Position numbers and translations under genes: made by a program | Notes under the pieces: generated by a model | Told to the model about the DNA's origin: nothing | Seen by the model: the letters and a program-made list of their open reading frames with translations, nothing else | Database searches by the model: none | NCBI RefSeq assembly: GCF_000009905.1 | Contig: NC_006177.1 | Coordinates: 1,426,001 to 1,490,000, forward strand | Length of the DNA stretch: 64,000 nucleotides | Source of the DNA: Symbiobacterium thermophilum IAM 14863 | Lineage (GTDB): Bacteria; Bacillota; Sulfobacillia; Symbiobacteriales; Symbiobacteriaceae | Direction: 5' to 3' | Part shown: one piece after another, positions 9,801 through 27,450 of the stretch | Layout of the letters: every line of letters begins with the position of its first letter | Position numbering within the stretch: the first letter of the stretch is position 1

Positions 9801-9803
9801 CGA

Positions 9804-11533: not shown

Positions 11534-12253
11534 TCAAGCGACGAGCAGCGCAGTCAGGATGAGCACCAACAGAGCGATAAGGATGGGTAGGAGGCATCCA
11601 CATACGGCAGCGGAAGCTGCCGCTTTTTCTTCAGTAGGTCGCTCCGCCAATTGACCCCGTTCTCGGTTGGCAGGCGGACCGGTGTAATGGGGTTCTGGCG
11701 TGCCTCTTGCCCTGGGCCGTGGCGTGAAGGTTTCGTTCAGGAGCTGCGCCCGCCGAATGTTGCCAACCGCAAAACTGCGATACTCGCCACGAAAATGGCA
11801 GTACGCTTCCAGAATGTACCCTGAACCGGCCGGGGTTAGCGAGGTGGGCTCCACTACCCGCTCCGTGACGTCCTGCCGATAGGCCGTGTAATAGCGCATC
11901 CAGACGCAACGTCGCTCTGCGATGGCTCTCTCCAAGAGCCGGAGAATGGCGGTGTACTCGGTCGCAAGCTCACGGGCGTCTGCCGTGAGGGCCTTGGCGG
12001 CGGATCGGCGTGAGCGATTCCTCGTCGACGCTTGCGATCTTGTGCTAGCGCCCGAGCGAGGCCTGGACCCTGCCTTCGATCGGTCATTCGAGCTTGGCCA
12101 TGCCATCGCGTCCGCCTTGGCCACCTGCGCCTCTGCTAACCTGCACTGGTGTACGATATCGGTTCCGAAGTCAAATGCAACCCACTGCCCAGCCGGCATC
12201 TCACGCAGGCTCAGTGGTGCCCCGCAGTACTTGCACTTTCGATAGATCGCCAT
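11534..12253 (-). CDS. WYL-domain protein with zinc-ribbon start and membrane anchor
   Basis: The product is 239 residues from the ATG at 12253; an ATG nine bases upstream is an alternative. The N-terminus has a single CxxC knuckle (CKYCGAPLSLRE) followed by a WVAFDF strand. A Ser/Arg-rich linker comes next. Residues about 105-170 match a WYL domain (MRYYTAYRQDVTERVVEPTSL, then GYILEAYCHFRGEYRSF). The C-terminus ends in a strongly hydrophobic segment (LLPILIALLVLILTALLVA). WYL domains bind nucleic acids or nucleotides and often regulate defence genes. This one has no helix-turn-helix and is apparently membrane-tethered. It begins 28 bases after the glycosylase gene and is probably the last gene of the DISARM operon. 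Confidence 0.75.
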   Translation of the reverse strand: MAIYRKCKYCGAPLSLREMPAGQWVAFDFGTDIVHQCRLAEAQVAKADAMAWPSSNDRSKAGSRPRSGASTRSQASTRNRSRRSAAKALTADARELATEYTAILRLLERAIAERRCVWMRYYTAYRQDVTERVVEPTSLTPAGSGYILEAYCHFRGEYRSFAVGNIRRAQLLNETFTPRPRARGTPEPHYTGPPANRERGQLAERPTEEKAAASAAVCGCLLPILIALLVLILTALLVA

Positions 12254-12280
12254 GGCCCTCATCCCCGAAGTAATGTCCTG

Positions 12281-12979
12281 TCAAGTCCGCCGCAGAGATT
12301 CACCATAAGGCAGCTGACCTTCCGCGGCCTGCTGGGCGGCCTCTCCCAACAGGCAGTAGTTGGCCACCACGCACTCCGCACATCTGGGGCAGCGGGCCGT
12401 GCAGATCTGCTGACCGTGGGCCACCAGGTTCACGTGCAGCACGTACCCCAGGTGGCCCGGGACGATGCGGGCCAGCTCTCGCTGTGCGGGGCGGTGGGCC
12501 AGCCGGGCGTCGATGACGCCCATGCGCTTTAGCACCCGGATGCAGTGGGCGTCCGCCGGGAACACCGGCCGGTCCAGGCCGTAGAGCATCACGCACAAGG
12601 CCGTCTTCATCCCCATGCCGGGGAGCGACATGAGGAACGCCAGGCACTCGTCATCCGGCCACTGCCGGAGCGGTTCAAGGGTGACGGCACCGAAGCGGTC
12701 GCGCAGCAGGCCGGCCACCGCCAGCAGGTGGCCAGCTCTGATCTCCTCCAACCCGCTCCCCCAGAGCAGCCGGACGAGCTCCACCTGCGTCAGCCCGAGC
12801 AGGCCGTCCCAGCCACGTACGGTGGCGCGGAGCCGCTTATAGACCCTCGCCGCTGTCCGGATTGGGGTCTTGCGGCTCAGCATCAGGTAGAACAGGCAGT
12901 CGGTCGGGTCGGTGGGGTTGCCGTGCCGGGGACTGCCATACCGCGCCGCCAGCGCTCGGCTTAGCCCTTCCCAGTCCAC
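12281..12979 (-). CDS. Endonuclease III-like DNA glycosylase (HhH-GPD, 4Fe-4S)
   Basis: The product is 232 residues, about the length of Nth. The helix-hairpin-helix reads LMSLPGMGMKTA, with the lyase-type lysine retained. The catalytic aspartate is in FPADAHCIRV (PVDTH in Nth). The C-terminal cluster has the exact C-x6-C-x2-C-x5-C spacing of the 4Fe-4S loop. The GTG start has GGAGGGATGATCC before it, three bases after the helicase stop. The retained Lys separates it from MutY and from MIG-type T:G glycosylases, which lack it. It sits in the DISARM operon with a 5-cytosine methyltransferase across the divergent promoter. A role in processing T:G mismatches or damaged bases is inferred. Confidence 0.85.
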   Translation of the reverse strand: MDWEGLSRALAARYGSPRHGNPTDPTDCLFYLMLSRKTPIRTAARVYKRLRATVRGWDGLLGLTQVELVRLLWGSGLEEIRAGHLLAVAGLLRDRFGAVTLEPLRQWPDDECLAFLMSLPGMGMKTALCVMLYGLDRPVFPADAHCIRVLKRMGVIDARLAHRPAQRELARIVPGHLGYVLHVNLVAHGQQICTARCPRCAECVVANYCLLGEAAQQAAEGQLPYGESLRRT

Positions 12980-12982
12980 GGA

Positions 12983-15064
12983 TCATCCCTCCGCCTGCTG
13001 CCCCGCCAGTGTCCAGTGGGGTCCCTCCAGCTCGGCGATGAGGGGGGAAGGAGCCCGACGCGGGTGCAGGATCACCAGGCAACGCATGGCCCGGGTCATC
13101 CCCACGTACAGCGTGCGGCGGGCGGTCTGCATCTCCTCGTCCCGCTCCTCCGGGTCCATGTCGGCGGGCAGGCGGGGGAAGTACCGGGCCGACAGCCCGG
13201 CGATCACCACCACGGGGAACTCCAGTCCTTTGGCCGCCTGCAGCGTCAGCACCTTCACCGCGTCTGTCTTCAGGTCGAGCTGGGAGCCGCGCATGAACCG
13301 GGCCTTCAGCCCGGCCCGGGTGAGCCCTTCCTCGGCCTGCTGACCCACGGAGGAGGAGGGGACCAGCACCGCGGCGGCCCCATGGTTCATGCGCACGTAC
13401 CGGGTCATCTGCCGAATGAAGTCGGCCGCCTGCTCCCACTGCTCGGCTTCGCTCTCGTACGTGGCCAGTACGGGCGCCGGCCCCGTCACGGGCGAGTCGG
13501 TCTGCAGCGACTCCGGGTCACCCGCCCCGCTCTTCTCCAGGAAGGCGCGGGCGACCTCGGCGATCTCCCGTGTAGAGCGGTAGTTGCGCCGGAGCAGCTT
13601 GGCCCGGCCGCGGAAACGTAGCCGCTGGTGGACCAGCTGCCAGCTGAACCCGCGGAAGTAGATGGACTGGGACGGGTCGGCGGTAACGTAGATCCCTCGC
13701 TCGGACTCCGCCAGTTCCACCAGCAGGGAGAGCATGGCGGGGGTGAGGTCCTGCGCCTCGTCGATGACCACCGCGTCATAGCGCTGGCCGCCGCGGCCGG
13801 CCCGCACATGCTCCAGGGCCCGGACCCTCAGCCGGGACGGGGAACACAGTCCGTCCCGCTCCAGTTCCGTGCAGAAAGCGGTGTAGAGCTCCCACACGGC
13901 TCGACGGGCTGCCTCGCCCAGGGCGATGCCTCGGCCCGTCCGGCTGGCGGCCAGGTACTCGTCCAGACTCTTGAGGTTGCGTCCGTCGATGATCCACTCT
14001 ATCTCATCCAGCACATAGTCCGGCCGCAGCCGGCGGACCGACTCGGGCAGGTGGTCCTGATGCCGATCCATGAGGCGCGCGATCCGGGCCTCCAGGTCCT
14101 GGCGGTCGGTTACCACCCGCACCGGCTCCAGCCGGGATACGATGTCCTCGGCCACGCCGTCGGACGTCCGCACTGTCACTAGGTTGCGGTTCTCGCCCAG
14201 CAGGCTCTCCAGTAGCTGCTCCGAGAACCGCGCCAGGGCAGGGGTGTAGGTGGTGAAGAGGATTCGGGGCGTCTGTCGGCCGGTTTTCAGTCTGTGCTCG
14301 ATGAGCCGCTGCACCCGGTAAAGTGCCACCGTTGACTTGCCCGTGCCCGGCCCCCCCTTGATGAGCACCGGGCCCTCCAGGGCCCAGTCCACCAGACGCT
14401 CCTGCGAGGGGTCGAGCCGGAGCAGGAACCCGATGAGGTCGTCCTTGTGGTACCGGTCCAGGTCCTTCGTGCTGAAGACGGCCAGGTCGGGCTGCTGCAT
14501 GACCTCGTCGATGGGGCGCGGGAACAGGTTCTCGACCACCCGCTCGATGTAACGTGGGTCCACCTCCGCGTTTAGCAGGTCGTCCTCTGTCCGGCAGGCC
14601 AGGAGCGCCGGCTGGGCCTCCGGCGGCACGCCCAGGGAGTCCAGCCACTCGGCGGTGATGGGCCGCGGCAACTCCCGTGGAGTGGCCTCCTGCCCAGGCG
14701 TCCAGGCGGGGCGGCTCCCCGCACCCTGGAACAACAGCTCGTCCAGGTCAGGATCTTCGATCGTCTCCGGCATGAACGTCGGCTCCTCGTACGCCACATC
14801 CCGCCTGTAGGCCTCACGGCGGTGCCGGATGCCGAGCAGCCGAATCCAGGTGGTGCCGAAGCTATAGAACAGCCGGTAGTCGCCGATGCGGAGCCGATAC
14901 ACGTCGGGCCACTTTCCGAGCTTCTTCTTGCTGTGGCCGTCCGGCAGCGGATCCTGGCACAGGAAGTCGATCTTCTCCCATACCTGGCTGGCCATGTGCG
15001 CGGGCAGCGCGCGTAGCTCGGCCAAGCACGAGGGCTTGATGTTCATGTCCCTGGCAAGCGCCAT
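12983..15064 (-). CDS. RelE-like domain fused to UvrD-like SF1 helicase
   Basis: The product is 693 residues. Residues 1-85 look like a RelE/ParE toxin fold (KLGKWPDVYRLRIGDYRLFY, then IRLLGIRHRREAYR). A linker of about 130 residues follows, then an SF1A helicase: Walker A GGPGTGKST near residue 237, DEAQDL, ADPSQSIYFRGFSW, NYRSTREI, LQAAKGLEF and YVGMTRA. AGGAGGAG overlaps the drmC stop and sets the ATG at 15064. No antitoxin gene is adjacent, so the RelE part may serve in RNA or ribosome binding rather than as a free toxin. This architecture recurs in actinobacterial and Firmicute genomes but I know of no characterised role. It is embedded in the drmA-drmB-drmC operon. Confidence 0.85.
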   Translation of the reverse strand: MALARDMNIKPSCLAELRALPAHMASQVWEKIDFLCQDPLPDGHSKKKLGKWPDVYRLRIGDYRLFYSFGTTWIRLLGIRHRREAYRRDVAYEEPTFMPETIEDPDLDELLFQGAGSRPAWTPGQEATPRELPRPITAEWLDSLGVPPEAQPALLACRTEDDLLNAEVDPRYIERVVENLFPRPIDEVMQQPDLAVFSTKDLDRYHKDDLIGFLLRLDPSQERLVDWALEGPVLIKGGPGTGKSTVALYRVQRLIEHRLKTGRQTPRILFTTYTPALARFSEQLLESLLGENRNLVTVRTSDGVAEDIVSRLEPVRVVTDRQDLEARIARLMDRHQDHLPESVRRLRPDYVLDEIEWIIDGRNLKSLDEYLAASRTGRGIALGEAARRAVWELYTAFCTELERDGLCSPSRLRVRALEHVRAGRGGQRYDAVVIDEAQDLTPAMLSLLVELAESERGIYVTADPSQSIYFRGFSWQLVHQRLRFRGRAKLLRRNYRSTREIAEVARAFLEKSGAGDPESLQTDSPVTGPAPVLATYESEAEQWEQAADFIRQMTRYVRMNHGAAAVLVPSSSVGQQAEEGLTRAGLKARFMRGSQLDLKTDAVKVLTLQAAKGLEFPVVVIAGLSARYFPRLPADMDPEERDEEMQTARRTLYVGMTRAMRCLVILHPRRAPSPLIAELEGPHWTLAGQQAEG

Positions 15065-15067
15065 GCC

Positions 15068-15868
15068 TTACTCCTCCTGGCTGCGATCGTATTCCACAAG
15101 CACAGCGTCACGGACTAGCGCGGCGAAGTGGCGGTCGATCTCATGGGCGACCTGCCCCTGAATGCGCACGCCGAACTCGATGTTCTTGTCCAGCCCGAGA
15201 TGCGTCAGGTTGGCCGAGGTAACTAGTAGGTCACGACTGTCGACGACCAGTAACTTCGCGTGCAGAGAGGCCTTTGGCACGTCCGGCCGCCCCGTCCACC
15301 GGAGCAGGCTTAGCGGGATTCGCTCCGGCCACAGGTTGAGAAGGGTATCGTGGTTCTTGCCGTCGTCGTGCAGCGCGATCGCCACTTGCACCCCCTGTGC
15401 CGCCCTGCGCGCCAGCGCCAGGACGAGGCGCACGGCCTCGGGGCTTTCGCCAGTGAGGGCGTAGCCCACGAGCAGGATCCGCGCACGGGCTCCCTCAACC
15501 ATCTCCTGCATCACGGCCAGTGTGGAGCGGGCCTGGACCCCAGGCGGGGCGTAGGGGCCGGTCCACACTGGGCTAATCCGTGGGGCGCGCCTCTCGGCGC
15601 GGGCGCGGGTCGCGTGAGCAACCCCCAGGGCGAGCGCGAGGGCCGGACCCGGGACGGCGGTCGCCCCGGTCGCGGCCCACAGCTTGAGGAATGGTGCCAG
15701 CAGGTGATCGTCGATCCGGTGCGGGGCGAGCAGAGTGCGGACCTCGTGGAGTGTCGTGCCGGGGCCAATGCGCTCCGCCGCCAGCAGGGCCCGCAACGCT
15801 GCCAGGGCGTCATCCCCAGCACTCTCGGCCAGGGCGACTAGGCTGAGCTCCAGCTTCGGGTTCATCAC
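15068..15868 (-). CDS. drmC: DISARM DrmC, phospholipase-D-type nuclease
   Basis: The product is 266 residues. A single HKD motif, LHAKLLVVDSRDLLVTSANL (HxK...D with the following SAN), marks a PLD-superfamily nuclease. The N-terminal half is helical and typical of DrmC. The start ATGATG overlaps the drmB stop by four bases, indicating translational coupling. In published DISARM systems DrmC is part of the core triplet with DrmA and DrmB. PLD enzymes normally need two HKD motifs, so a dimer is likely. Confidence in the family is high; its catalytic need in this system is not known. Confidence 0.85.
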   Translation of the reverse strand: MMNPKLELSLVALAESAGDDALAALRALLAAERIGPGTTLHEVRTLLAPHRIDDHLLAPFLKLWAATGATAVPGPALALALGVAHATRARAERRAPRISPVWTGPYAPPGVQARSTLAVMQEMVEGARARILLVGYALTGESPEAVRLVLALARRAAQGVQVAIALHDDGKNHDTLLNLWPERIPLSLLRWTGRPDVPKASLHAKLLVVDSRDLLVTSANLTHLGLDKNIEFGVRIQGQVAHEIDRHFAALVRDAVLVEYDRSQEE

Positions 15869-17682
15869 AACACGCCTCCGAAGAACGCAAGGTGCGGATT
15901 CGACACGGTGGGCACCAGGAACGATCGGTCAAGGAAGCGGTTGGAGCGTTCGCAACAAGTCTCTGCCAGTAGCTGACAGGCGTGGCACGCAGCACCGTTG
16001 AGGTCCCCGTGCGCCTCGGGCTCGTGCTCGGCGCACAGCGGGTCACTGGAGCAGTACGAGGCCTCCTGCAAGGCGTGCCAGAGCGCCTCGCCGAACCGGT
16101 CGGTCTGCCCCTGCTCCACGAGACCTCCGAGGCTCCCCTCCGAGTCCGGAGTCGCGGTATAGATCAACACGCCCGCCATTTGCTCATCTGGCGTGTTCCG
16201 GGCGTAAATCCGCTCGCGCAGGGCTGTGGTCGAGTAGCCCGATCTGATGCCTAGCTGCCGGATGAGGGCATGGGCCAGCGAGTGCAGGAGGACGTAGCGG
16301 GCGCCTGGGAAAGGCGGGTGCGGGTATATGTTTCGGTCAGTGCAGTACTTCTTGTGCGCCTGCGCCATGGCATCCGCTGCGTCCTTGACGCGTTCCTCCC
16401 AAGCACGCACGGCGTCGAGGTTCAGGGTGAAGAAGATGCCCTCTCCCCGCACCATGATCCCTGGCAGCCACCGCTTACCCTCGGGCTGCAGCGGTCCCAG
16501 GAACGCCCTGCGGGCGGTTGACCGGGTCTCCTCGTCACCGGTGACGATGGCAGTGATATCGCTGGGTGGGTCGATGCGGGTGAAGCCCGCTAGGACCCGC
16601 ACCTCTCTAAGCCGCCGAACCTGCACCAGCCGGTCGATTAACCCCTCGAAAAGGGGCGGCACCGGCTGATCTTCCACCTCGAAGTCCTGCTCAGGGTCGG
16701 AGTAGGGGGTGGAGAGCAGGGCCCGGTACTCGGGAAAGAGCAGGTCCTGGTCCGGTCCTCGTCTCAGCTTGCGCCTCTCCTCCCAGGCAGTCCAGATTTG
16801 CTCAGGCGTGAAGAGCTCTCGGACCTCCCTGTTCACCCAGCGCCACGCCTGATCCCGGAACTCCTCGAACGAGGAGGCCTCCTCCAGCTGGTCGCGCACC
16901 TTGTCGAGGTAGTCGAACTCGGGTCGGGTGTAAGGAGGAATGGCCAGCGCACTCTCCACGATGGGGAAGTACGCGTTGGACGCACCGCGCAGCAGGGCCC
17001 GCGGCGTCTCGTCGCATAGTTCTGTTGCGTCCCGGCCCAGCCACGGCCTCCGGCCTGGGCACCGCCCCAGGACCTTTCCAGCGTCCTTGCCGAAGGCGTC
17101 TCCCAGCGAGCGTCCCTTCTCCGGGCGGCACGAGCAGCGTACCACCACGTCCCGGATCGATCCGCTGGTGCCGCTCTCGTCCAGGGTGAGCCGGCCCTTG
17201 TCGCCCAGTGGACACGGCTTGTCCCGGTGCACGAAGGCGTGCCAGGGGAAGTCACTCAGGTGGCCACTGGGGCAGGCGATCATGAAGCGCACTGGGAAGA
17301 CGCGGGAGGCCTCACTGACCTTGTCGGTCTCCTTTTCCGTACCCTTGTGATAGCAGTACAGCACGCCGTTGCGGTCTGCGACGAACCGGTCGTAGCGGGC
17401 CAGCGTGCGGCAGTCGGGGCAGACCATGAACGTCGGGAAACGGAAGACGGGCAGGTTGGGCTCCTTGGGGTTCCGCGGGTTCATGGGCGGCGCGAGGACC
17501 CGGTCGATCATAAGCCGCGCCGTCAGCCGGCTCTCCGGAATGGGCTGGCACAGATCCTCGTCCCAGTGGTTGAGGCCGGCCACCAGGACGGACAGGTCGG
17601 GAAGGTCGACGATGGCGCCGGGTCCGAAGGTCGTGATGAGCTGGCTGGGGCGCATCTCGCCCACCTTGCGTCGGTCGTCCAT
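15865..17682 (-). CDS. drmB: DISARM DrmB, DUF1998 protein
   Basis: The product is 605 residues from the ATG at 17682, within the TGATG junction with the drmA stop. The frame stays open further upstream but there it overlaps drmA out of frame. Features include an N-terminal GEMRPSQLITTFGPGAIVDL block, CPDC and further cysteines (probable zinc sites), the DUF1998 core (HSLAHALIRQLGIRSGYST), and the C-terminal CSSDPLC and CHACQLLAETCCERSN clusters. In published DISARM structural work DrmB partners the DrmA helicase in DNA recognition; that role is carried over here by homology. It is co-translated with drmA and drmC. Confidence 0.9.
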   Translation of the reverse strand: MDDRRKVGEMRPSQLITTFGPGAIVDLPDLSVLVAGLNHWDEDLCQPIPESRLTARLMIDRVLAPPMNPRNPKEPNLPVFRFPTFMVCPDCRTLARYDRFVADRNGVLYCYHKGTEKETDKVSEASRVFPVRFMIACPSGHLSDFPWHAFVHRDKPCPLGDKGRLTLDESGTSGSIRDVVVRCSCRPEKGRSLGDAFGKDAGKVLGRCPGRRPWLGRDATELCDETPRALLRGASNAYFPIVESALAIPPYTRPEFDYLDKVRDQLEEASSFEEFRDQAWRWVNREVRELFTPEQIWTAWEERRKLRRGPDQDLLFPEYRALLSTPYSDPEQDFEVEDQPVPPLFEGLIDRLVQVRRLREVRVLAGFTRIDPPSDITAIVTGDEETRSTARRAFLGPLQPEGKRWLPGIMVRGEGIFFTLNLDAVRAWEERVKDAADAMAQAHKKYCTDRNIYPHPPFPGARYVLLHSLAHALIRQLGIRSGYSTTALRERIYARNTPDEQMAGVLIYTATPDSEGSLGGLVEQGQTDRFGEALWHALQEASYCSSDPLCAEHEPEAHGDLNGAACHACQLLAETCCERSNRFLDRSFLVPTVSNPHLAFFGGVL

Positions 17683-20600
17683 CAGCCTCTGCCCTCCCCT
17701 TTCAGATAGAGTCCCAGCGGGGTCTCCACGTCCCGCATCGAGTTGGGCGCCGCGAACAGGTCCCGGGTGGAGCGCTTCTCCTCGAGGGGGTAAAGGACGT
17801 TTGGCGCGACCCGGTCCCCGGCGTAGACTAGGCCGCCAGCCTCCGCGGCCTTGTGCCAGGTCTCGATGATACGGTCGACGTCCTGGACGACGTCCCCAAG
17901 CTCGACTCGCTGCCCGGAGTCGCGGACCCGGTCGAGGACGCGCTGCCGGATGGCCTGCACGGCTACATCGGTGGCCCTGAACTTCTGGGCTGCGCGGCGG
18001 GCTGTCAGCGAGCGGATGCCGTGCCGGCACATGGTGACGAAGGCGCCTGCGAGCGCCCGGTCCCGGGCCCGGGAGGAGAACGGCGTGACGCTGATTGCCT
18101 CCACATACCGGTAGAGCGCCGCGTGGTAGCTGTAGAAGCGCTCGTAGTGGGAGACATCCCGTGGCCTGGCCCAGTTGTACACGGTGATGACCAAGCCCGG
18201 ATGGGTGCGGCCCACCCGACTTGTGGCCTGGATGTACTCGGCCGTGGTCTTCGGCTGCCCGGTGACGACCATAAGGCCGAGCCGCGGCACGTCGACGCCG
18301 ACGGAGATCATATTGCTGGCCAGCACCACGTCCACGGGCGGCTTCTCCGGGTCAGGTGGGTCCAGCAGCGGTCGTTCCAGCTGGTCGAGCAAGCGCGGAA
18401 CCTGGCTGGAGTCGACCCGGCTGGTCAGCTCGGGTACCGTGTCGGGCAGCTTCCGGGCGACGAACCGGTACTTCTGTCCGGGGCGGTCGGGGTTGGCCAG
18501 GGTCTTCGCCATGCGGGACCGCACGTCGTCCTCGATGAGCCGCACGGCGCCGCCCAGCTCACGCAGCGAGTTGAAGTAGCCGACCATTGTGAAGTATGGG
18601 TCCAGGTCGGCGGCGCTCGCCTGTATTGCGCCGACAGAGGCGAGGAGCGCGGCGTACACGCGCACGAGGGCGGTCTTGACGGACCGGCCCGGTGCGAAGA
18701 TTCCCACGTACATCCGGCCGGAGGCCTCCTCCAGCGGCACCTCCTCGGCGAAGAACGAGTGGCCGGCCTCCAGGCCGGGCGGCGGGAACACCACCGCGCG
18801 CCGGTTGAACAACCCCTGTACCTGAGACACCGCGTTTCGGATGGTGGCCGTGGAGGCGATGACCTTCGGGCCTACCTGCTGGCCGTCGATCTCCCGGCTG
18901 CAGAGGTAGTCGATCGCCGTCTCGTATACGCCGACCATGGTGCCCAGCGGCCCGCTGATGAGGTGGAGCTCGTCCTGAATGATCAGCTCCGGGGGCAGCA
19001 GAGGACGGCAGTCCGTGATCTGTTCTTGCATGTTCTGTGCAAGCAGTGTTGCATGCCGCCTGGCGGCTGTCTCTTCGCTCTCGCCGACGGCCGCGAACCC
19101 CCAGCCGGGGATCCAGCCCCGCACGTGTCCGAACAGGCTGCCCGTCTCCGCTATCCATGGGAGCCGGGCGAACTTGTCCACCGTCCCGATGACCAGAGCC
19201 GGCGCGAGCCTGTAGATCTCCTCGTCCTCCACCAGGGCGGGGATGCCGTCGGGATTCTTCAGCCTGTGGAAGTCACAGCCCTTGCGGGAGCACCCGATGA
19301 TGAGCCGACGGGTCTTCTTGTGCGGGTAGTAGTCGGATGAGCGCAGCGGTGCTCCGCACCACGGGCACGCGACCAGCTGTACGGGCGTGGGCCCCGCGTG
19401 ATTCTTGTCGGTTAGGGCCTTCGCACACTCGTCGAAGTCGTTGGGCGTCGAGTTGCCGCCCACCCAGAGTCCGATACGGAAGGGTTCGTGGCCCCAGGTT
19501 TCGGGGTCCTCCCGGCGGATCAACTCGCAGGCGCAGATTAAGGTGGCTGCACGCTGGAACTGCTGGATCGTCAGCAGCCGGAGGGTGTACCGCATGATGA
19601 TGGCGACACCGGCATCGCCTCGCATGCCGTCTACCTCGCCTCGCAGCCGCCTGTAAGCGAGGAGGAAGGCTGCAAGGCCCAGGTAGGCCTCGGTCTTACC
19701 GCCGCCGGTCGGGAACCAGAGCAGGTCGGCGTAACTCCTCTCCTTGTGGGCAGGCTCCACCACGCTCAGGATGTTGACGAGGATGAATGCGATCTGGAAG
19801 GGCCGCCAAGCGCTCTTCAGCGGGATGGGCGGCGTCCTCCAGACTTGGGCATCCTTGCGGGCCCGGCGGGCCCAGTCCGCCTGGGTCCGCTGCCAGGCCA
19901 TGGCCCGGTTGGCGAACTTGAACGCCTGAAAGGCCTTCGGGTCCGTCCTGAGGCGCCGGAGGCCCGCTTCCATACGCTCGGCCGCTTCCTTGCAGAGCGC
20001 AAGGTGGTCCTCCGCCTGACGTTGCAACTCATGGAGCAGCTCAGATCGTAGCTCTTCCAACTCCCGTTCCCGCTGCTCGAACCAGTTCCAGTACGCCTCG
20101 ATCAGCGGGTTCAGGTAGTCGAACAGTCTGTCCTCATCGGGCACGTCAGCCAGCTTCTGCATGTCCAGGACCGCGCTTCCTTGATCTTGCTGCGCCACGA
20201 TGAGAGGTACGGTGTAGTCCGGGATGGTAACCGTCTCCAGCTTGACAGCCCGGTCGAACCGCCCGGGCGCCAAATCCCAGCGCACAGCTGTGCCGTGGCC
20301 AACGGCGAACACCTGTGCCTTGCGGTACAACAGCTCGTCCTGCCGTTCGTCCAGTCTCTGCCCCTCGGGTACCTGCAGCCGGCGGGCGGAGAAGACCGGG
20401 TCGCCCTCCTCCGGCGCGGTCACCTGTATGACGGGCTGGAACAGGCACAGCTCGTCCTCCGGCCCTTCCGGTCTGTTGTAGCGGTTGACCAGGAACAGAC
20501 TGACGGCGGTCCTGCCTTCCAGAGGCCGGGCCAGCCACTCGATTTTCGGGCCGGGGGCGTCCGTCGCCGGGTAACTGCGCCGCTTCCCGTCGGCGATGAG

Positions 20601-21017
20601 CGGCACGGTGGCTTCGATCGCATGGGGGACTCGGAGCCACCGTTCTAACCGGGTGCTGCCAGCCTCCCGGTGCTCCTCAGACTTCCGGTACATCCCCCAC
20701 GACGCGCGGACTCGCACCCTATCGCAACCCGGTTCCACCACGAAGGAGAGGCCGATGGAAGACGGGTTCAGCGCCTGGGCCAGCGGCGCTGAGAGGTCCT
20801 GCCCGCTGTGCGACTCACCCTCGTCGTCCATCATGTTGTCAGTCAGGTCGTCCTCAGCGGACTCCATGGGCGTACCGCGCGGCCAGAGGATGCCGCAGAG
20901 GTACCGGCTGGAGGGGCTCTCGCCAAGCTCCTCCTCGTCGTCGTTGGGTCCCACAAGCTCCTTGCGCAGGCGGTCAAGTAGCTCGGACCGCACCCGCTCC
21001 TTGGCAGTGTCCTTCAT
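17682..21017 (-). CDS. drmA: DISARM DrmA, SF2 helicase
   Basis: The product is 1111 residues from the ATG at 21017 (MKDTAKERVR), behind a GGGGGG tract; an in-frame start at 21044 precedes that tract and is less likely. Helicase motifs are Walker A LLWFPTGGGKTEAYL, QDELHLI (DEXH type), ASTATIRN, and motif VI QATSRVGRTHPG. A zinc-binding CPWCGAPL and a CSRKGCDF pair lie between the lobes. In published work DrmA with DrmB discriminates self from invading DNA. It heads a six-gene leftward operon with overlapping or nearly abutting junctions. Length and motifs fit the family, with no sign of truncation. Confidence 0.9.
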   Translation of the reverse strand: MKDTAKERVRSELLDRLRKELVGPNDDEEELGESPSSRYLCGILWPRGTPMESAEDDLTDNMMDDEGESHSGQDLSAPLAQALNPSSIGLSFVVEPGCDRVRVRASWGMYRKSEEHREAGSTRLERWLRVPHAIEATVPLIADGKRRSYPATDAPGPKIEWLARPLEGRTAVSLFLVNRYNRPEGPEDELCLFQPVIQVTAPEEGDPVFSARRLQVPEGQRLDERQDELLYRKAQVFAVGHGTAVRWDLAPGRFDRAVKLETVTIPDYTVPLIVAQQDQGSAVLDMQKLADVPDEDRLFDYLNPLIEAYWNWFEQRERELEELRSELLHELQRQAEDHLALCKEAAERMEAGLRRLRTDPKAFQAFKFANRAMAWQRTQADWARRARKDAQVWRTPPIPLKSAWRPFQIAFILVNILSVVEPAHKERSYADLLWFPTGGGKTEAYLGLAAFLLAYRRLRGEVDGMRGDAGVAIIMRYTLRLLTIQQFQRAATLICACELIRREDPETWGHEPFRIGLWVGGNSTPNDFDECAKALTDKNHAGPTPVQLVACPWCGAPLRSSDYYPHKKTRRLIIGCSRKGCDFHRLKNPDGIPALVEDEEIYRLAPALVIGTVDKFARLPWIAETGSLFGHVRGWIPGWGFAAVGESEETAARRHATLLAQNMQEQITDCRPLLPPELIIQDELHLISGPLGTMVGVYETAIDYLCSREIDGQQVGPKVIASTATIRNAVSQVQGLFNRRAVVFPPPGLEAGHSFFAEEVPLEEASGRMYVGIFAPGRSVKTALVRVYAALLASVGAIQASAADLDPYFTMVGYFNSLRELGGAVRLIEDDVRSRMAKTLANPDRPGQKYRFVARKLPDTVPELTSRVDSSQVPRLLDQLERPLLDPPDPEKPPVDVVLASNMISVGVDVPRLGLMVVTGQPKTTAEYIQATSRVGRTHPGLVITVYNWARPRDVSHYERFYSYHAALYRYVEAISVTPFSSRARDRALAGAFVTMCRHGIRSLTARRAAQKFRATDVAVQAIRQRVLDRVRDSGQRVELGDVVQDVDRIIETWHKAAEAGGLVYAGDRVAPNVLYPLEEKRSTRDLFAAPNSMRDVETPLGLYLKGEGRG

Positions 21018-21166
21018 AGAGGGCTGCCCCCCTTTCACTAGCAAGCTACAACCTATCTCGACAATTCTGCAGTTGATCGTGCAAGACCTCTCGGGACATG
21101 GGAGGACTCCGACAGTTGAAAGTTTAATTCCATGAAAAAGACGGTGTCCAACCTGGGGGTGGCTGA
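21018..21166. promoter_or_regulatory. Divergent promoter region of the DISARM island
   Basis: This 149-base gap between the two divergent operons must hold both promoters. It is AT-richer than its surroundings. Candidate -35 boxes such as TTGAAA and TTGATC are visible but lack convincing -10 partners. I cannot assign promoter elements or an operator with confidence. Confidence 0.4.
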
Positions 21167-23062
21167 ATGTCCAGGGGCTTTGCCCTTCTCGGGTGGCTGA
21201 ATCCGGCGCAGCGGCAGGCGGTGACGGCGCCGTGTGGACACCTGTGCATCAACGCGGCGGCAGGCACCGGCAAGACCACCACCGTGGCCGCGCGCATCCT
21301 GTGGCTGCAGTTGGTTCAGGACGTTCCGCCGGAGGCCATCCTGGCGGTGACGTTTTCGCGCGCCGCACGCGCCCACTTGCTAGACAGAGTGGAGGCGTTC
21401 ACACGCGTCCTCGGAGCGGGCGGTGCGGTTCCGACGTTCACCCTCCACGGCCTGGCCTATCGCATCCTGCGCATCGCCATCGGGGCGGGGGAGACCTGGC
21501 TTCGTCCCGGGTTCGGTGTGATCTCTGTGGGCCGGGACCGCATCAACCCTCTGCTGCAGGAGCATGCGGCGGACTTGCTTGGTGACCTCTCGGATCCTTG
21601 GGATCTACCCACCCGGGTCGAACAGTACTCCCGGGCGCTGGATGCCGTGCGCCAGGGCTGCGCCGACATCGAGGAGGGGTTGCCGCTGGAGCCAGACGAC
21701 CTGCCGGACGGGGTGCTCTATGTTCCCGCGCGCATTGAAACCCCTAACCTTCGGAAGGTTTGGAGGCGCTACAACCGAATGCTGCGTGCCCGCAACTACC
21801 TGGACTATCCCGGCATGGTCACCGAGGCGATTCTCGCCCTGTATCGGGAAGGTAAGACCCTGCAACGGGCGCGAGCCAATCTGGAGTACATCATCGTGGA
21901 CGAGTACCAGGACACCTCCCGGGCCCAGGAGGAGTTGATCCAGCTTCTCGTTGGCGAGCGGACCTCGGTCACCGTGGTGGGGGACAGTGATCAGGCGATA
22001 TACACCTTCAACGGTGCGGACATCGGCAACATCCTCCACTTCGCTGAGCGCATCTTGGAGACGGGCTCGGCGCTTCCCGTGCTGGAACCGGTACATCTTG
22101 TCGAGAATTATCGCTCCAGCGCCTGCATCTTGGATGCTGCAAACCGGGTACTGGACCGCATCCACGGTCCTGGGCGGAAGCAGCTTGTCCCCTATCCGGG
22201 TACAGTCGATGAGCCCGTCGAGTCTTACAGACGCCGGAACCTGGAGGTCGTGCGGGTCCACGCCGGGAGCCTTGACCAGGCGGCCTTCTGGGCGGCTTCG
22301 GAGATCGCCCGCCTTGTGACCGAGGAGGGGATCGAGCCGTCGGACATCGCCGTCCTGGTCCGAAAGGATACCGAGCATGCACCGCAAGGTAGGGCAGTGC
22401 GCCTGGCGCTGGAACGGCTCGGTATTCGGGCTGAGGAGCAGGAGCGGGACCCGATTCGTAGCTCGCATGTGTACGAGGTGGTGCGGGACCTCTGCGGTGA
22501 TCCCGACTACTATGGTGAAGACATCGGAGATATGATCGAGCGTATAGCTGCCGGCGAGTTCAGGGACGCCCTCGGCGACGTGACGCCCGACGAGGCCACA
22601 GCACTCCTGCGCGAGGCGCAGGCGGCCGGGGCTGAGTTCGCGGGAGAGGTGGTGGACTTCGTCTTCGAACAGGGCGCGCCGGATGCGACCCCCGCCTCCC
22701 TGGAGGGCGTGCAGGTCCGCACCATTCACTCGGCTAAGGGTCTGGAGTTCCGTGTGGTGTTTCTCATGTACCTCTCTGACCGGGAGTTCCCGCACGGTGC
22801 ACATCCCGATGTTGCGGAGGAGCGGAGGCTCTATTACGTGGGACTTACCAGGGCCCAGGAGCGGCTCTACGTGTTGGGCCAGCCCGGTGTTCGTAACGAG
22901 GACTTCTTCGGTGCGATCGACGGGTCCGGCGTGGTCACGGTCCACGTCGAACCCTGGCGTGATCGCTCGCCTTCTTCAGAAGAAGCGGTGGATGACGAGA
23001 CCCTCCGCCTGATCCAGGAGGCCCGCCGCCGTCAGCACGACATGTTCCTGAGGAGGCCGTAG
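21167..23062 (+). CDS. UvrD/PcrA-like SF1A helicase 1 of the DISARM island
   Basis: The product is 631 residues. SF1A motifs are in order: Walker A AAAGTGKTTT, the motif II DEYQDTS, GDSDQAIYTFNGAD, VENYRSS, RTIHSAKGLEF and YYVGLTRAQERLY. It is shorter than PcrA/UvrD (about 720), with reduced 1B/2B insertions. The ATG at 21167 follows GGGGGTGGCTGA. It heads the rightward operon, three bases ahead of the second helicase. Unwinding or translocation on cut or recognised DNA is the likely activity; its coupling to DrmA/DrmB is inferred from position only. It is not one of the published DISARM core components. Confidence 0.85.
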   Translation: MSRGFALLGWLNPAQRQAVTAPCGHLCINAAAGTGKTTTVAARILWLQLVQDVPPEAILAVTFSRAARAHLLDRVEAFTRVLGAGGAVPTFTLHGLAYRILRIAIGAGETWLRPGFGVISVGRDRINPLLQEHAADLLGDLSDPWDLPTRVEQYSRALDAVRQGCADIEEGLPLEPDDLPDGVLYVPARIETPNLRKVWRRYNRMLRARNYLDYPGMVTEAILALYREGKTLQRARANLEYIIVDEYQDTSRAQEELIQLLVGERTSVTVVGDSDQAIYTFNGADIGNILHFAERILETGSALPVLEPVHLVENYRSSACILDAANRVLDRIHGPGRKQLVPYPGTVDEPVESYRRRNLEVVRVHAGSLDQAAFWAASEIARLVTEEGIEPSDIAVLVRKDTEHAPQGRAVRLALERLGIRAEEQERDPIRSSHVYEVVRDLCGDPDYYGEDIGDMIERIAAGEFRDALGDVTPDEATALLREAQAAGAEFAGEVVDFVFEQGAPDATPASLEGVQVRTIHSAKGLEFRVVFLMYLSDREFPHGAHPDVAEERRLYYVGLTRAQERLYVLGQPGVRNEDFFGAIDGSGVVTVHVEPWRDRSPSSEEAVDDETLRLIQEARRRQHDMFLRRP

Positions 23063-23065
23063 CAG

Positions 23066-24568
23066 ATGAAACAGCAGATCAAGAAACGGAAGCGCGTAAA
23101 GCTGACGGACCAGCAACGCCGATGCGTGAACTGGCCGCTGGACCAGGATCTGCTCATTCGCGGTATCCCCGGCAGCGGAAAGACCACGGTCCTCCTGGAG
23201 CGCGCCTATCGCATCGAGACGGCGGGCGGAACACCCTCGCCTCGCATCCTGGTCTTGACCTTCAGCTCGCTCCTCACCGCCTACGTCCGCCAGCTAGCGC
23301 TCGAGGAGGGGAACGGCCTGATCGAGGCGCAGACGTTCCATGGCTGGGGCCTGCAGCTGCTCCAGGATGTGGGCTACGCTCCGCGCGGAGGCGTGATGAA
23401 AGAGCAGGATCGGGAGGCCCAGATCAAGTTTGCTCGTAACATTATCCGGAAGTACCGCCAAGACCTGAAGCCGCCATCCTTCGGCGCAAATCGGAAGCCG
23501 CCGGTTGATCCCCGGCGTGCGAAGGTCATGGAGCTGGAGTTCCTCAAGGAGGAATTCTCCTGGATCAAGGGCCTGGGCAAGAACCGGGACCGGTATATAA
23601 GTGAGCCGCGTACGGGGCGGGGGAACACTGTCCGGGTTGACCGGGAAAACCGGGAGTACATCTGGGCGGTATACGAGAAGTATGAGGAACTGAATCGAAA
23701 TCAGAAGAAGTGGGACTTCGACGACGTCGCCCTGAAACTGCTGGAGGCCAAGAGACTCGGGCTGATCACCCCTGACAGGTGCCCGCAGTACGTATTGGTT
23801 GACGAGGCGCAGGATTTGACGGTGATGCAGCTCAGGGCGATTCGGGAGCTCACCACTGTCAGCCTCACCATCGCAGCAGACAAGGGACAGTCGATCTACC
23901 AGAGGAACTTTTCCTGGACAGAGCTGGGGATTGACATTCGAGGGCGCAGTCGCTCGCTCCAGCAAACCTTCCGGTCTACCCGCCAGATCATCCGCCTCGC
24001 TCGCAGCCTGCAGCGGCACGACCCGTTGGTCATCACCGGGAGCGACGAGTACGTTCCAGCCGCCGACCCTGACGTGAACGGGCCGGTGCCCATACTGTAC
24101 GTGGCCCCCGATCTCGAGACGCAGATCCAACAGGTTGTACAATGGGCGTTGCGACTGCTGGCCACGCCGGGGTTGGAGGAGGATACCATCGGCATCATCG
24201 TGCCCACGGCCAGTCTCCGGGAGAGGTACGCCCAGGCGCTGGAAGATGCGGGGGTACCCTACCTCATCCTGGGACGGGATCACAGTTACGATGCTGTGTC
24301 GCCCGGTATCAAGCTGGTCACTTTTCATTCGGCGAAGGGGCTGGAGTTCGACCACGTGGCGGTTACGTCGCTCAGAGAAGGGTCGATACCCTCATCGCTG
24401 AGCCGCGATCTCAGTGCCGAAGACCGGGAGGAGTTCATCGCCACGGAGAGGAGAAAGGTGTATGTGGCCATGACTCGGGCCCGGCTGACTTTGGCCCTGT
24501 TTGCGTGCCGTCCCGTCTCACAGTTCGTGATTGAGATGGATCCGACGCTCTACAGGCGAGCAGAGTGA
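23066..24568 (+). CDS. UvrD-like SF1 helicase 2 of the DISARM island
   Basis: The product is 500 residues. Motifs are GIPGSGKTTV, VDEAQDLT, AADKGQSIYQRNFSW, QTFRSTRQI, VTFHSAKGLEF and YVAMTRARL. These are closer to the helicase part of the RelE fusion (DEAQDL, DPSQSIYFRGFSW) than to helicase 1 (DEYQDTS), so the island carries at least two helicase subtypes. The start ATG is three bases after the previous stop, with AGGAGG inside the preceding gene. It overlaps the next gene by four bases (GTGA). The 2B region is compact. Its specific role is unknown. Confidence 0.85.
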   Translation: MKQQIKKRKRVKLTDQQRRCVNWPLDQDLLIRGIPGSGKTTVLLERAYRIETAGGTPSPRILVLTFSSLLTAYVRQLALEEGNGLIEAQTFHGWGLQLLQDVGYAPRGGVMKEQDREAQIKFARNIIRKYRQDLKPPSFGANRKPPVDPRRAKVMELEFLKEEFSWIKGLGKNRDRYISEPRTGRGNTVRVDRENREYIWAVYEKYEELNRNQKKWDFDDVALKLLEAKRLGLITPDRCPQYVLVDEAQDLTVMQLRAIRELTTVSLTIAADKGQSIYQRNFSWTELGIDIRGRSRSLQQTFRSTRQIIRLARSLQRHDPLVITGSDEYVPAADPDVNGPVPILYVAPDLETQIQQVVQWALRLLATPGLEEDTIGIIVPTASLRERYAQALEDAGVPYLILGRDHSYDAVSPGIKLVTFHSAKGLEFDHVAVTSLREGSIPSSLSRDLSAEDREEFIATERRKVYVAMTRARLTLALFACRPVSQFVIEMDPTLYRRAE

Positions 24569-25653
24569 AAGGTCGGGATGAGGACATGGGGAGCCCCCTC
24601 GAGCGGGAGTTTCATGAGGCGATGGTCTCAATATGCGAGCGGGCGACCCGGGAGTGCGGCTACAACCCGAGGGACTTGAGGCGGATGATCTTCGACCACG
24701 GGGGCCTGGGGGCAGCTCGGCTCCTCCTGCGCACCGACCGGGTCTCGGACGGGTTCGTGCGGCTATGGGAGCTGAAGCGGCTGGACCTCACAGTGGAGGC
24801 GCATGTGCTCCTGCCACGGTTTGCCGCGCTCTTCACGGAGGAGGAGCACCGCATAGCGCGCCGGCGGCTGCAGGACTACGGCTACCCCGTTCCCGAGCCC
24901 AGGCCGGCGGCTACAAGACCAAGCACTCAGGCGGGAGAGGAAGCGGTCCCACCGGCCGCCGAGGCGGTGGCGACGTCGCAGATGGCGACGGGAGGCAGCC
25001 GGCACCACCTGCAGCGGCTGGTGGGCGACAACCCCGAACTGCTGAACTGCCTGCTCCTGTCCGCCAGCGAGTCATTACGCGCGTTTGCGGGCGGGCACCC
25101 GCACTGGGTCTGGCCTCTGGCCACGAACGGGTACCGGGAGAACCGGGACGTGACGTATCTGGATGCGCTGGGACTCGCGGACCTCACGCCCAGGCTTGCC
25201 GAGTTCTGGCCGTCCGACGGCCCGGTCTGGGACGGTCTCGCACAGGTATCCGGACGCCACGGCATCCGGGGGGTCCTCCTGCTGGAGGCGAGGAGCCATG
25301 TGCAGGAGATCACCGGTCCGGGGTACCAGGTCGGCAGGGAGAGTCTGGAGCGCATGCAGCAGAGGCTGGAGCAGGTTAAGGCCGTCCTGGGCGCCGATCC
25401 GGCGGCAGACTGGGTGGGGAAGTACTACCAGGCAGCTAGCCGCATCGCTCACCTGTACTTCCTGAACATCCTGGCCCAGGTGCCGGCATGGCTGGTGAAT
25501 CTACACTTCGTGGGAGACCGGGAGCAGTCCGGTCCGCAGACGGTCGCGGAGTGGGAGGTTTCCTTCAAGTCGCTGGACACAGCGCTGGGGCTGCCCCCTG
25601 GCCACCTGCTGGCCGGGCGTATCATTACGGCGTTTCTACCCGTGGTGGTGTAA
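24565..25653 (+). CDS. Two-domain protein, possible PD-(D/E)XK-like C-terminus
   Basis: The product is 362 residues, starting at the GTG at 24565 that overlaps the upstream stop; an in-frame ATG at 24586 is an alternative. Residues about 9-112 form a conserved all-helical domain (EREFHEAMVSICERATRE, then HGGLGAARLLL and WELKRLDLTVEAHVL). It recurs as a free or C-terminal unit in many bacterial hypotheticals. An Ala/Pro-rich linker of about 50 residues follows. The C-terminal part (SLRAFAGGHPHWVWPLATNG, RGVLLLEARSHVQEITGPGY, VPAWLVNLHFVGD) resembles a nuclease-like family in which LLLEAKSH carries the E-x-K; here the Lys position is Arg. No DrmE is recognised, and this protein occupies the corresponding place. 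Function unknown. Confidence 0.7.
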   Translation: MKGRDEDMGSPLEREFHEAMVSICERATRECGYNPRDLRRMIFDHGGLGAARLLLRTDRVSDGFVRLWELKRLDLTVEAHVLLPRFAALFTEEEHRIARRRLQDYGYPVPEPRPAATRPSTQAGEEAVPPAAEAVATSQMATGGSRHHLQRLVGDNPELLNCLLLSASESLRAFAGGHPHWVWPLATNGYRENRDVTYLDALGLADLTPRLAEFWPSDGPVWDGLAQVSGRHGIRGVLLLEARSHVQEITGPGYQVGRESLERMQQRLEQVKAVLGADPAADWVGKYYQAASRIAHLYFLNILAQVPAWLVNLHFVGDREQSGPQTVAEWEVSFKSLDTALGLPPGHLLAGRIITAFLPVVV

Positions 25654-25695
25654 CCCTGTCGTGTTCAGAACTGTAGCGCATAGGAGGCCGCGTTG

Positions 25696-27180
25696 ATGCA
25701 GTGTCCGGATCCGGTTCGCATGAAAAAGCTCGAACGCCTAGCCTCCGGGGGCCGACCCAGGGTTCTCGACCTGTTTGCAGGATGCGGAGGACTGTCTCTG
25801 GGCTTTCAGCGGGCCGGGTTCGAGATCCTGGCTGCTGTCGAGATGGACCCGCACGCAGCCAGATCCCACGCCATCAACTTCCATCCGGGAGATCGCTTCG
25901 ATCTTCACGCCAAGCCCCGAGACATCTCACAGGAGCAACCGGACCAGGTGCTTGGCGAGCTCTATCCAGGAGAACGGGCAGAGGATCTCGTCGACATCAT
26001 CATTGGCGGCCCGCCCTGTCAGGCGTATGCCCGGGTCGGGCGGGCAAAGTTAAGGGAGATATGGCGCCATCCTGAAGGCTATAAGTTGGATCCGCGCGGC
26101 GATTTGTTCCTCCACTACCTGTACTACGTGGACCGCCTGAAGCCCGTGGCCCTGGTCATGGAGAACGTCCCCGACGCGCTTAATTACGGTGGCCATAACA
26201 TCGCCCAGGAGGTTGCGGATTGGCTGGAGGACCGAAATTACGTCTGCCGCTACACCCTGTTGAATGCCGTCCACTACGGCGTGCCGCAGATGCGAGAACG
26301 CATGTTTCTTATAGCAGTTGCTGGAGAGTTGGGTGTGGAGCCCGAGTTTCCCGTCCCCACTCATGCCTTCACCCTGCCCGCTGGCTATAAGAACGCCCGG
26401 AAAGTGGCGATGCGTACCCTCGGCCTTCTGCAACCGGAGCGTCTCGGAAGTTTTGTTTCTCCGCCCACTGTCGACCCAGCCCTTCCACCGGCGGTAACCG
26501 CGTATGAGGCTATCGGAGACCTTCCGCCGATCACTGCACACCTGGAGAACCGGATCGGCCGGGGGCCGCGTCGCTTTACGGAGCAGGTACCGTACGCGGG
26601 GCCACCTCATTCCGACTACGCCAGGCTAATGCGTACTTGGCCAGGGTTCGAAGCTCTTCACGGGATTTCGGACCACGTGATCCGGTATCTACCGCGGGAC
26701 TATCGCATTTTCGCCCGCATGCGTCCTGGCGACCAGTATCCGGAGGCGTATGCCCACGCGCTCTCGTTGTTCATGGCGGCTGTTGAACGGCTTCGTCGAG
26801 AAGGTGTAGACATCGCACCCGGTTCAGAGCCATACCAGCGGTTGTGGAAGGAGTACGTACCTCCCTACGACGTGTCGAAGTTCCCTAATAGATGGTGGAA
26901 AATGGAACGGGACCTTCCGGTGCGGACCCTCATGGCTCATCTTGGCAAGGACAGCTACACTCACATCCACTATGACGACGCACAGGCGAGGACCATTTCG
27001 GTGCGTGAGGCGGCCCGCCTGCAGAGTTTTCCGGATGGATTTCGCTTTGCTGGCACGATGAACCCAGCGTTTCGCCAGATCGGTAATGCCGTGCCCCCCC
27101 TTCTCGCTTGGCGTGTCGGTGCAGCGGTGCGGGAAGCCATCGAGACGGCATTGGGAGTACGTTTGCCAGATAGGCCTTAG
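25696..27180 (+). CDS. drmMII: DISARM-type 5-cytosine DNA methyltransferase
   Basis: The product is 494 residues. C5-methyltransferase motifs are DLFAGCGGLSLGF (I), GGPPCQAYA with the catalytic Cys (IV), MENVPD (VI), QMRERMFLIAV (VIII), and REAARLQSFPD with GNAVPPLLA (IX-X). The long target-recognition segment lies between VIII and IX. AGGAGG at 25681-25688 fits the ATG at 25696; a TTG three bases earlier is possible. In class 2 DISARM, DrmMII marks host DNA as self by cytosine methylation. Here it closes the rightward operon opposite drmABC. The recognition sequence cannot be read from the protein. Confidence 0.85.
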   Translation: MQCPDPVRMKKLERLASGGRPRVLDLFAGCGGLSLGFQRAGFEILAAVEMDPHAARSHAINFHPGDRFDLHAKPRDISQEQPDQVLGELYPGERAEDLVDIIIGGPPCQAYARVGRAKLREIWRHPEGYKLDPRGDLFLHYLYYVDRLKPVALVMENVPDALNYGGHNIAQEVADWLEDRNYVCRYTLLNAVHYGVPQMRERMFLIAVAGELGVEPEFPVPTHAFTLPAGYKNARKVAMRTLGLLQPERLGSFVSPPTVDPALPPAVTAYEAIGDLPPITAHLENRIGRGPRRFTEQVPYAGPPHSDYARLMRTWPGFEALHGISDHVIRYLPRDYRIFARMRPGDQYPEAYAHALSLFMAAVERLRREGVDIAPGSEPYQRLWKEYVPPYDVSKFPNRWWKMERDLPVRTLMAHLGKDSYTHIHYDDAQARTISVREAARLQSFPDGFRFAGTMNPAFRQIGNAVPPLLAWRVGAAVREAIETALGVRLPDRP

Positions 27181-27243: not shown

Positions 27244-27273
27244 TTGTTTCCGGTTGCCCGGATGTGCTATCGT
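27244..27273 (+). promoter_or_regulatory. Candidate promoter of the sugar ABC operon
   Basis: TTGTTT and TATCGT are separated by 18 bases, with an extended TG two bases before the -10. It lies between drmMII and the binding-protein gene. Confidence 0.4.
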
Positions 27274-27384
27274 TTGTCCCGGAAAGTGCTGGTGAGAGCA
27301 ATCTGCTTACCAAGGGCCGGAGAGTGTGAAGCGGTGATCCGTCGGGTCCCATCCGCTACACGTTCGCCGATCCACGGAGAATCC

Positions 27385-27420
27385 GCCGCAGGAAGCCATT
27401 CGGCCCTGCGGCGTTCTCAT
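27385..27420 (+). terminator. Stem-loop after drmMII or leader of the sugar operon
   Basis: GCCGCAGG pairs with CCTGCGGC, extended by GAGAA/TTCTC, and is followed by a T-rich run. It lies after the candidate promoter, so it could be a terminator for drmMII or an attenuator of the sugar operon. Confidence 0.45.
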
Positions 27421-27450
27421 TCTCAACCCACATCTGGAGGAGGTATTGGG

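Follow-up and report, generated by a model that had tools for sequence, protein, structure and literature searches.

A chromosomal DISARM locus of Symbiobacterium thermophilum with a divergent pair of UvrD helicases: a probable distinct subtype

We analysed a stretch of 64,000 nucleotides from Symbiobacterium thermophilum IAM 14863 (NC_006177.1, positions 1,426,001-1,490,000; hereafter the window, in whose positions all coordinates are given) that carries a locus of the defence system DISARM. Ten genes lie between 11534 and 27180: six are transcribed leftward (minus strand), from drmA to a gene for a WYL protein, and four rightward (plus strand), from the helicase gene UvrD1 to a DNA 5-cytosine (C5) methyltransferase gene. 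All ten had been named in an initial annotation of this DNA, and all ten are present, including two superfamily 1 (SF1) helicases, a RelE-UvrD fusion, an Nth-like glycosylase, the WYL protein and a two-domain protein. The rightward operon runs UvrD1, UvrD2, two-domain protein, methyltransferase, its genes spaced 3, -4 and 39 bases apart, and is separated from drmA by an intergenic divergent promoter region with two promoters (21018-21166).

The leftward operon begins with drmA (17682-21017 from an ATG, with an alternative TTG start at 21044), which encodes a short-type superfamily 2 (SF2) helicase of the YprA family. Its product scores 1237 bits against NCBIfam NF038325 DISARM_DrmAS (cut-off 950) and 1012 bits against the PADLOC DrmA model, and its residues 75-1112 align to the solved Serratia DrmA (PDB 7s9v, E 1.7e-217). 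The gene overlaps by 1 bp (TGATG) with drmB (15865-17682), coding for the DUF1998/MZB partner of DrmA (NF038324 DrmB_fam, 585 bits, cut-off 240), and drmB in turn overlaps by 1-4 bp, taking the likely starts, with drmC (15068-15868), which encodes a phospholipase D (PLD)-type nuclease (NF038319 DISARM_DrmC_I, 149 bits, cut-off 133) with an intact HxK motif. The tight leftward drmABC operon reported earlier is thus borne out, and the components common to DISARM of any class, namely DrmA, an adjoining DrmB, DrmC and a DNA methyltransferase, are all found in the window.

We compared the locus with the two known DISARM classes, as defined in PADLOC (PMC9252829) and in PMC9142583. Class 1 consists of drmD, drmMI, drmA, drmB and drmC, and the PADLOC rule for it demands DrmD and DrmMI (PMC9252829). 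The window shares the gene order drmA-drmB-drmC but lacks the SNF2 helicase DrmD and DrmMI, the divergent UvrD pair standing in their place; moreover, its DrmA has no match to the N-terminal ~215 residues of class 1 DrmA. With class 2 (drmA, drmB, drmC, drmE, drmMII) it shares drmABC and a nearby C5 methyltransferase, whereas DrmE is missing by profile and by profile-profile comparison, the methyltransferase appears to be of another lineage and DrmA falls in a separate clade. Among the ten locus proteins, none matched the NCBIfam models for DrmD, DrmMI or DrmE (NF038316 and NF038323 for the last) at E<=0.1, and PADLOC gave no DrmD or DrmMI match. When a four-sequence DrmE alignment was compared by hhalign with UvrD1, UvrD2, RelE-UvrD and the two-domain protein, the probability was <=0.3% each time, against 99.9% for the positive control, UvrD1 with UvrD2. 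The lack of drmE, drmD and drmMI, as first described, therefore stands, and a drmE hidden in the rightward operon, which would have undone that description, is ruled out by the NCBIfam profiles and hhalign together.

What occupies the position of the class-defining genes is UvrD1 (21167-23062), a superfamily 1A (SF1A) helicase that opens the divergent operon (Pfam UvrD, E 3.7e-49), followed by UvrD2 (23066-24568), a short SF1A helicase (E 8e-24). We searched for DrmA in 398 Bacillota genomes, in 395 from the order that includes Paenibacillus sp. 32352 and in 397 from the order that includes Rossellomorea, as well as in one genome-contig scan, one viral scan and a plasmid collection, and read the neighbourhoods by open reading frame calling and blastp. 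This survey of recurring neighbours, which the initial annotation had proposed, revealed the arrangement of the window, with UvrD1 next to drmA, UvrD2 beyond it and both pointing away from drmA, at 15 further Bacillota loci from many genera (L038, L056, L057, L059-L063, L065, L079, L080 and L083-L086; L058, a near copy of L057, was omitted). Identity to the window proteins across these loci is 32-42% for UvrD1 and 38-46% for UvrD2, the UvrD2 of L085 being truncated as called. The pair was seen at none of the 31 other DrmA loci, a few of whose stretches end early, at contig ends or at the limit of the span read. The arrangement beside drmA (16/16 in one clade against 0/31 elsewhere) is far beyond chance.

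The phylogenies agree with this distribution. The 16 DrmA proteins form one clade with a support of 100, and presence of the pair amounts to a single change of state on the tree, while shuffled states required 13.5 changes on average and none of 500 shuffles was as low as the observed value. UvrD1, UvrD2 and the RelE-UvrD of DISARM loci are each monophyletic in 100% of bootstrap trees. In the reciprocal test, UvrD2 had 14 matches at E<=1e-50 among 397 Bacillales genomes, nine of them at DISARM loci of the clade. These nine are the eight best by E-value plus that of genome G1120, which ranks only tenth because its UvrD2 is truncated; over residues 7-355 it is 46% identical, the highest identity of all 14. 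The other five are 35-38% identical and lie in a different helicase-nuclease cluster with no DrmA nearby, the fifth (G1137) having its cluster ~30 kb from an unrelated DrmA.

Each of drmA, drmB, UvrD1 and UvrD2 is present at all 16 loci of the clade, and drmC at 13. This recurrence defines the conserved unit as drmA, drmB and the UvrD pair, usually with drmC, and since both UvrD genes recur with drmAB at every locus of the DrmA clade, they belong to the system. Its catalytic residues are preserved: Walker A and B motifs are intact in UvrD1 of 16/16 loci, and the UvrD1 and UvrD2 motifs, the zinc cysteines of DrmB (16/16) and the PLD motif of DrmC are kept across the clade where alignable. UvrD1 and UvrD2 match the profiles of other SF1A helicases, GajB of Gabija and PcrA (AddAB/PcrA type), but the ten locus proteins include no match to the GajA/OLD nuclease of Gabija, and the two UvrDs form clades of their own. 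The distance between drmA and UvrD1 is 85-190 bp at 13 of the 16 loci as called; at the other three the starts overlap or leave 48 bp. Several Bacillaceae and Paenibacillus loci carry symmetric TGGTAAAAT elements or inverted repeats in this interval; a search for a conserved operator in the divergent promoter region of the window found no inverted repeat or symmetric element there.

The initial annotation had further suggested that the accessory genes act as one system. That idea holds for the UvrD pair, and RelE-UvrD recurs at 5 of the 16 loci, but as a single unit the set is ruled out for the Nth-like, WYL and two-domain genes, none of which was found at the other 15 clade loci.

The RelE-UvrD gene (12983-15064, minus strand) encodes a toxin domain of RelE/ParE fold (residues 1-~100; Pfam ParE_toxin, E 3.2e-8) fused to a UvrD helicase (E 6.9e-18) with intact helicase motifs. 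The nearest solved structure to its RelE-like domain is the archaeal RelE-like 1wmi (E 0.0018), and basic residues that would correspond to the catalytic ones of RelE, with E. coli RelE as the reference, are conserved in the five fusions. At each of its five loci the gene directly follows drmC or drmB, and the four in Paenibacillales encode full-length fusions 53-55% identical to that of the window. The fusion is not new in itself, since ArmD of ARMADA type II is a RelE-UvrD fusion, essential there (PMC12458937); we found no mention of its association with DISARM in the accessible literature. The plasmid search returned the fusion (L096/L098/L099 set) in Martelella beside a DEAD/DEAH helicase and an N6-methyltransferase, an ARMADA-like cluster, in Deinococcus NW-56 beside brxC and an N6-methyltransferase, a BREX cluster, and in Deinococcus taeanensis after a PLD protein within a Dpd cluster; viral contigs contained none. 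RelE-UvrD thus looks like a module common to several defence systems.

The methyltransferase P0007 (25693-27180, plus strand; Pfam DNA_methylase, E 2.4e-53) does close the rightward operon, as initially described, but its designation as drmMII is loose. PADLOC DrmMII matches it at 1e-67, yet the generic MTase_II model scores better, and in the tree it groups with the enzyme of L038 alone (56% identical), apart from the C5 methyltransferases of the DrmE-linked loci L049 and L050. The L038 gene adjoins genes for an AAA ATPase resembling McrB and a DUF2357/PD-(D/E)XK nuclease. All 16 loci have a C5 methyltransferase match within the stretch read (two partial), at varied positions and from several unrelated lineages; the cytosine methyltransferase of the clade is therefore replaceable.

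P0004 (12281-12979, minus strand) is an HhH-GPD/endonuclease III-like DNA glycosylase with a [4Fe-4S] loop (NF053634, 110 bits, below the cut-off of 400), closest to the endonuclease III-1 group (EndoIII-1 of D. radiodurans in the PDB, E 4e-28); the HhH lysine and the [4Fe-4S] cysteines are retained, as read from the sequence. No plasmid carried the gene. A 53% identical ortholog lies in genome G033 (L111), directly beside a C5 methyltransferase and another DISARM layout. Vsr (Pfam Vsr) is encoded at seven of the 16 clade loci and at eight DISARM loci outside the clade, and no locus examined combined it with the Nth-like gene. Judging from what is known of 5-methylcytosine deamination, the glycosylase probably repairs the T:G mismatches to which methylation by the resident enzyme leads. 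It would resemble Vsr and the thymine mismatch glycosylases of C5 methyltransferases in accompanying such an enzyme where other loci have Vsr, but differs in its Nth-like fold and EndoIII lysine, and its substrate is a prediction.

The leftward operon ends with the WYL gene (11534-12262, minus strand), whose product combines a zinc ribbon, a WYL domain (Pfam WYL, E 1.8e-14) and a C-terminal membrane segment; its cysteine pairs and hydrophobic tail are read from the sequence. The plasmid search matched it only to Synechocystis regulators, and there only in the WYL domain. The protein is probably a regulator. The two-domain protein P0001 (24565-25653, plus strand; 362 residues) has no Pfam, PADLOC or NCBIfam match, and searches of viral contigs, plasmids, phages, 61 relatives and the PDB returned relatives at the level of single domains only. 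Residues ~8-110 correspond to a stand-alone family of ~105 residues found on plasmids. This N-terminal family (window 24565-24900; L034, L036 and L037) is widespread and uncharacterised, with the motif RLDLTVEA, and in Shinella a stand-alone relative adjoins a Gabija-like gene pair. Residues ~140-360 match one Azospirillum protein and one viral-contig protein, and contain D...E-x-K/R in the order of PD-(D/E)XK nucleases; the D and the E are kept in all three sequences, while the window has R for the K of its relatives. As an AlphaFold model made without an alignment gave no usable fold (pLDDT 36), it is the motif that makes the C-terminal domain a nuclease candidate. At a guess, P0001 could act as a restriction endonuclease together with the methyltransferase and so fill a slot that AIPR, ResIII-helicase or McrB/DUF2357-type genes would take at other loci.

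To the left, the locus is bordered by an IS21-type transposase gene and its IstB helper gene (8580-10652), and to the right by a gene for a solute-binding protein (27244-28758). Apart from those IS21-type genes no mobile-element boundary of the island was found, and no tRNA or Rfam feature lies within the 64-kb window. Seven related genomes, of which two belong to the same genus, two others to the family and three others to the order, gave no match to DrmA, so the locus is patchily distributed.

Other arrangements came to light alongside. L041, L042 and L048 (with L111) share another DISARM layout without DrmD or DrmE. Their drmA-drmB is directly preceded by genes for a protein of 886-1040 residues without assignment, one with a coiled coil, an ATPase resembling Hsp70 (Pfam HSP70, E 2e-38 in L042) and a helicase of UvrD type. 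Related large proteins (837-1251 residues) are encoded near drmB in five loci: immediately following it at L081, L087 and L088, on the opposite strand in L089, and after RelE-UvrD in L056, where the protein includes domains of sigma-70 regions 2 and 4. In L040, L049 and L050 a helicase gene, NERD-UvrD in L050, lies between drmA and a gene for a DrmE-family or unassigned large protein. The Bacillales cluster with the more distant UvrD2 relatives (L118-L122) encodes a UvrD protein of ~914-1029 residues (with a NERD domain in L121), a protein of ~900 residues (with a weak AddB-like PD-(D/E)XK match in L119) and the UvrD2-like helicase; a C5 methyltransferase adjoins in L119-L121, and L119 and L120 have a Vsr-like gene. 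Possibly this cluster is a defence system of its own, of helicase-nuclease type.

Taken together, we read the locus as a chromosomal DISARM of a distinct subtype, in which drmA-drmB(-drmC) is combined with a divergent UvrD1-UvrD2 operon in place of drmD/drmMI of class 1 or drmE of class 2, and give this reading a probability of roughly 0.68. The gene identities, their recurrence, the monophyly and the intact catalytic motifs are directly established; the activities are predicted. Several observations weigh against it. Clade members were found only in Bacillota, sampling beyond that phylum being thin (a genome-contig scan with two short peptide patterns), and the PLD nuclease is missing from three of the 16 loci. 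The C5 methyltransferases are drawn from several lineages, and in L061 an EcoRII endonuclease adjoins the enzyme, which may thus belong to a separate restriction-modification system there. The genes specific to Symbiobacterium may be passengers, and that the UvrDs act on the same DNA as DrmAB would not follow from co-conservation.

The locus could instead hold two separate systems that share one promoter region, a drmABC DISARM and an independent UvrD1-UvrD2 helicase defence with a partner nuclease, kept together only by the tendency of defence genes to cluster and to be transferred jointly. Defence islands are modular, and in five Bacillales genomes UvrD2 relatives without a nearby DrmA adjoin a large UvrD protein and a possibly AddB-like one, in three of them together with a C5 methyltransferase. 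We nevertheless consider this unlikely: free co-location would yield losses and rearrangements, whereas at every clade locus, in many genera, the pair adjoins drmA and is transcribed away from it, with UvrD1, UvrD2 and DrmA each monophyletic, and the relatives without DrmA form another set at a greater distance. Still less probable is a degenerate class 2 DISARM that lost drmE, with an ordinary drmMII and UvrDs that merely substitute. Such a locus would account for the PADLOC DrmMII match, and loci of class 2 type also have a NERD-UvrD beside drmA, but neither UvrD1 nor UvrD2 has those NERD-UvrDs as its sister group, the window methyltransferase stands apart from the enzymes of L049 and L050, and its DrmA lies in a clade of its own outside the DrmE-bearing loci. 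Very improbable, finally, is the reading of RelE-UvrD as the main effector of a system akin to ARMADA II whose YprA helicase has been split. ARMADA type II does join a YprA-family helicase to a fusion that is essential there, ArmD (PMC12458937), but 11 of the 16 clade loci lack the fusion. In the window, the helicase and the DUF1998 module are split into DrmA and a separate DrmB, two further UvrDs are present, and the ten proteins include neither a BrxHII-like helicase nor a PglX-like methyltransferase, so that RelE-UvrD is the sole ARMADA component among the defining genes looked for.

For the distinct DISARM subtype, a mechanism can be sketched from homology to the solved class 1 complex, that of Serratia, in which a 5' overhang on the DNA activates DrmAB (PMC9142583). 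DrmAB would load onto phage DNA that has a single-stranded free end, and then translocate; UvrD1 and UvrD2 might form a two-motor engine that unwinds DNA ends or feeds them to DrmAB and DrmC, and DrmC or an associated nuclease would degrade the DNA. The replaceable C5 methyltransferase, here P0007, would mark host DNA, and the Nth-like glycosylase would most likely serve as its housekeeping enzyme, taking T out of T:G mismatches as Vsr would at other loci. Where present, RelE-UvrD would add a further helicase whose RelE domain could cut mRNA on engaging phage DNA. Tentatively, and with rather less confidence than in the subtype itself, we propose that these loci represent a third DISARM class, ancestral to one Bacillota clade of DrmA, in which a UvrD1-UvrD2 engine reminiscent of AddAB/RecBCD replaces DrmD or DrmE as the processor of DNA ends, and in which some members carry a helicase-tethered RelE RNase as a cell-protective or abortive arm, a plug-in common to ARMADA, BREX and Dpd.

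The UvrD-pair subtype is so far undescribed: in the accessible literature on DISARM classes 1 and 2, ARMADA, BRIGADE and TALON we found no UvrD pair as a defining DISARM part, an earlier mention in a supplement being possible. The finding supplies an annotation rule for loci outside both published classes, and places RelE-UvrD as a module beside several defence systems. For the family as a whole, the conserved core of DISARM seems to be DrmAB; the class-defining gene is replaced here by two helicases without exception in our sample, which suggests a possibly equivalent DNA-processing role for DrmD, DrmE and the UvrD pair.

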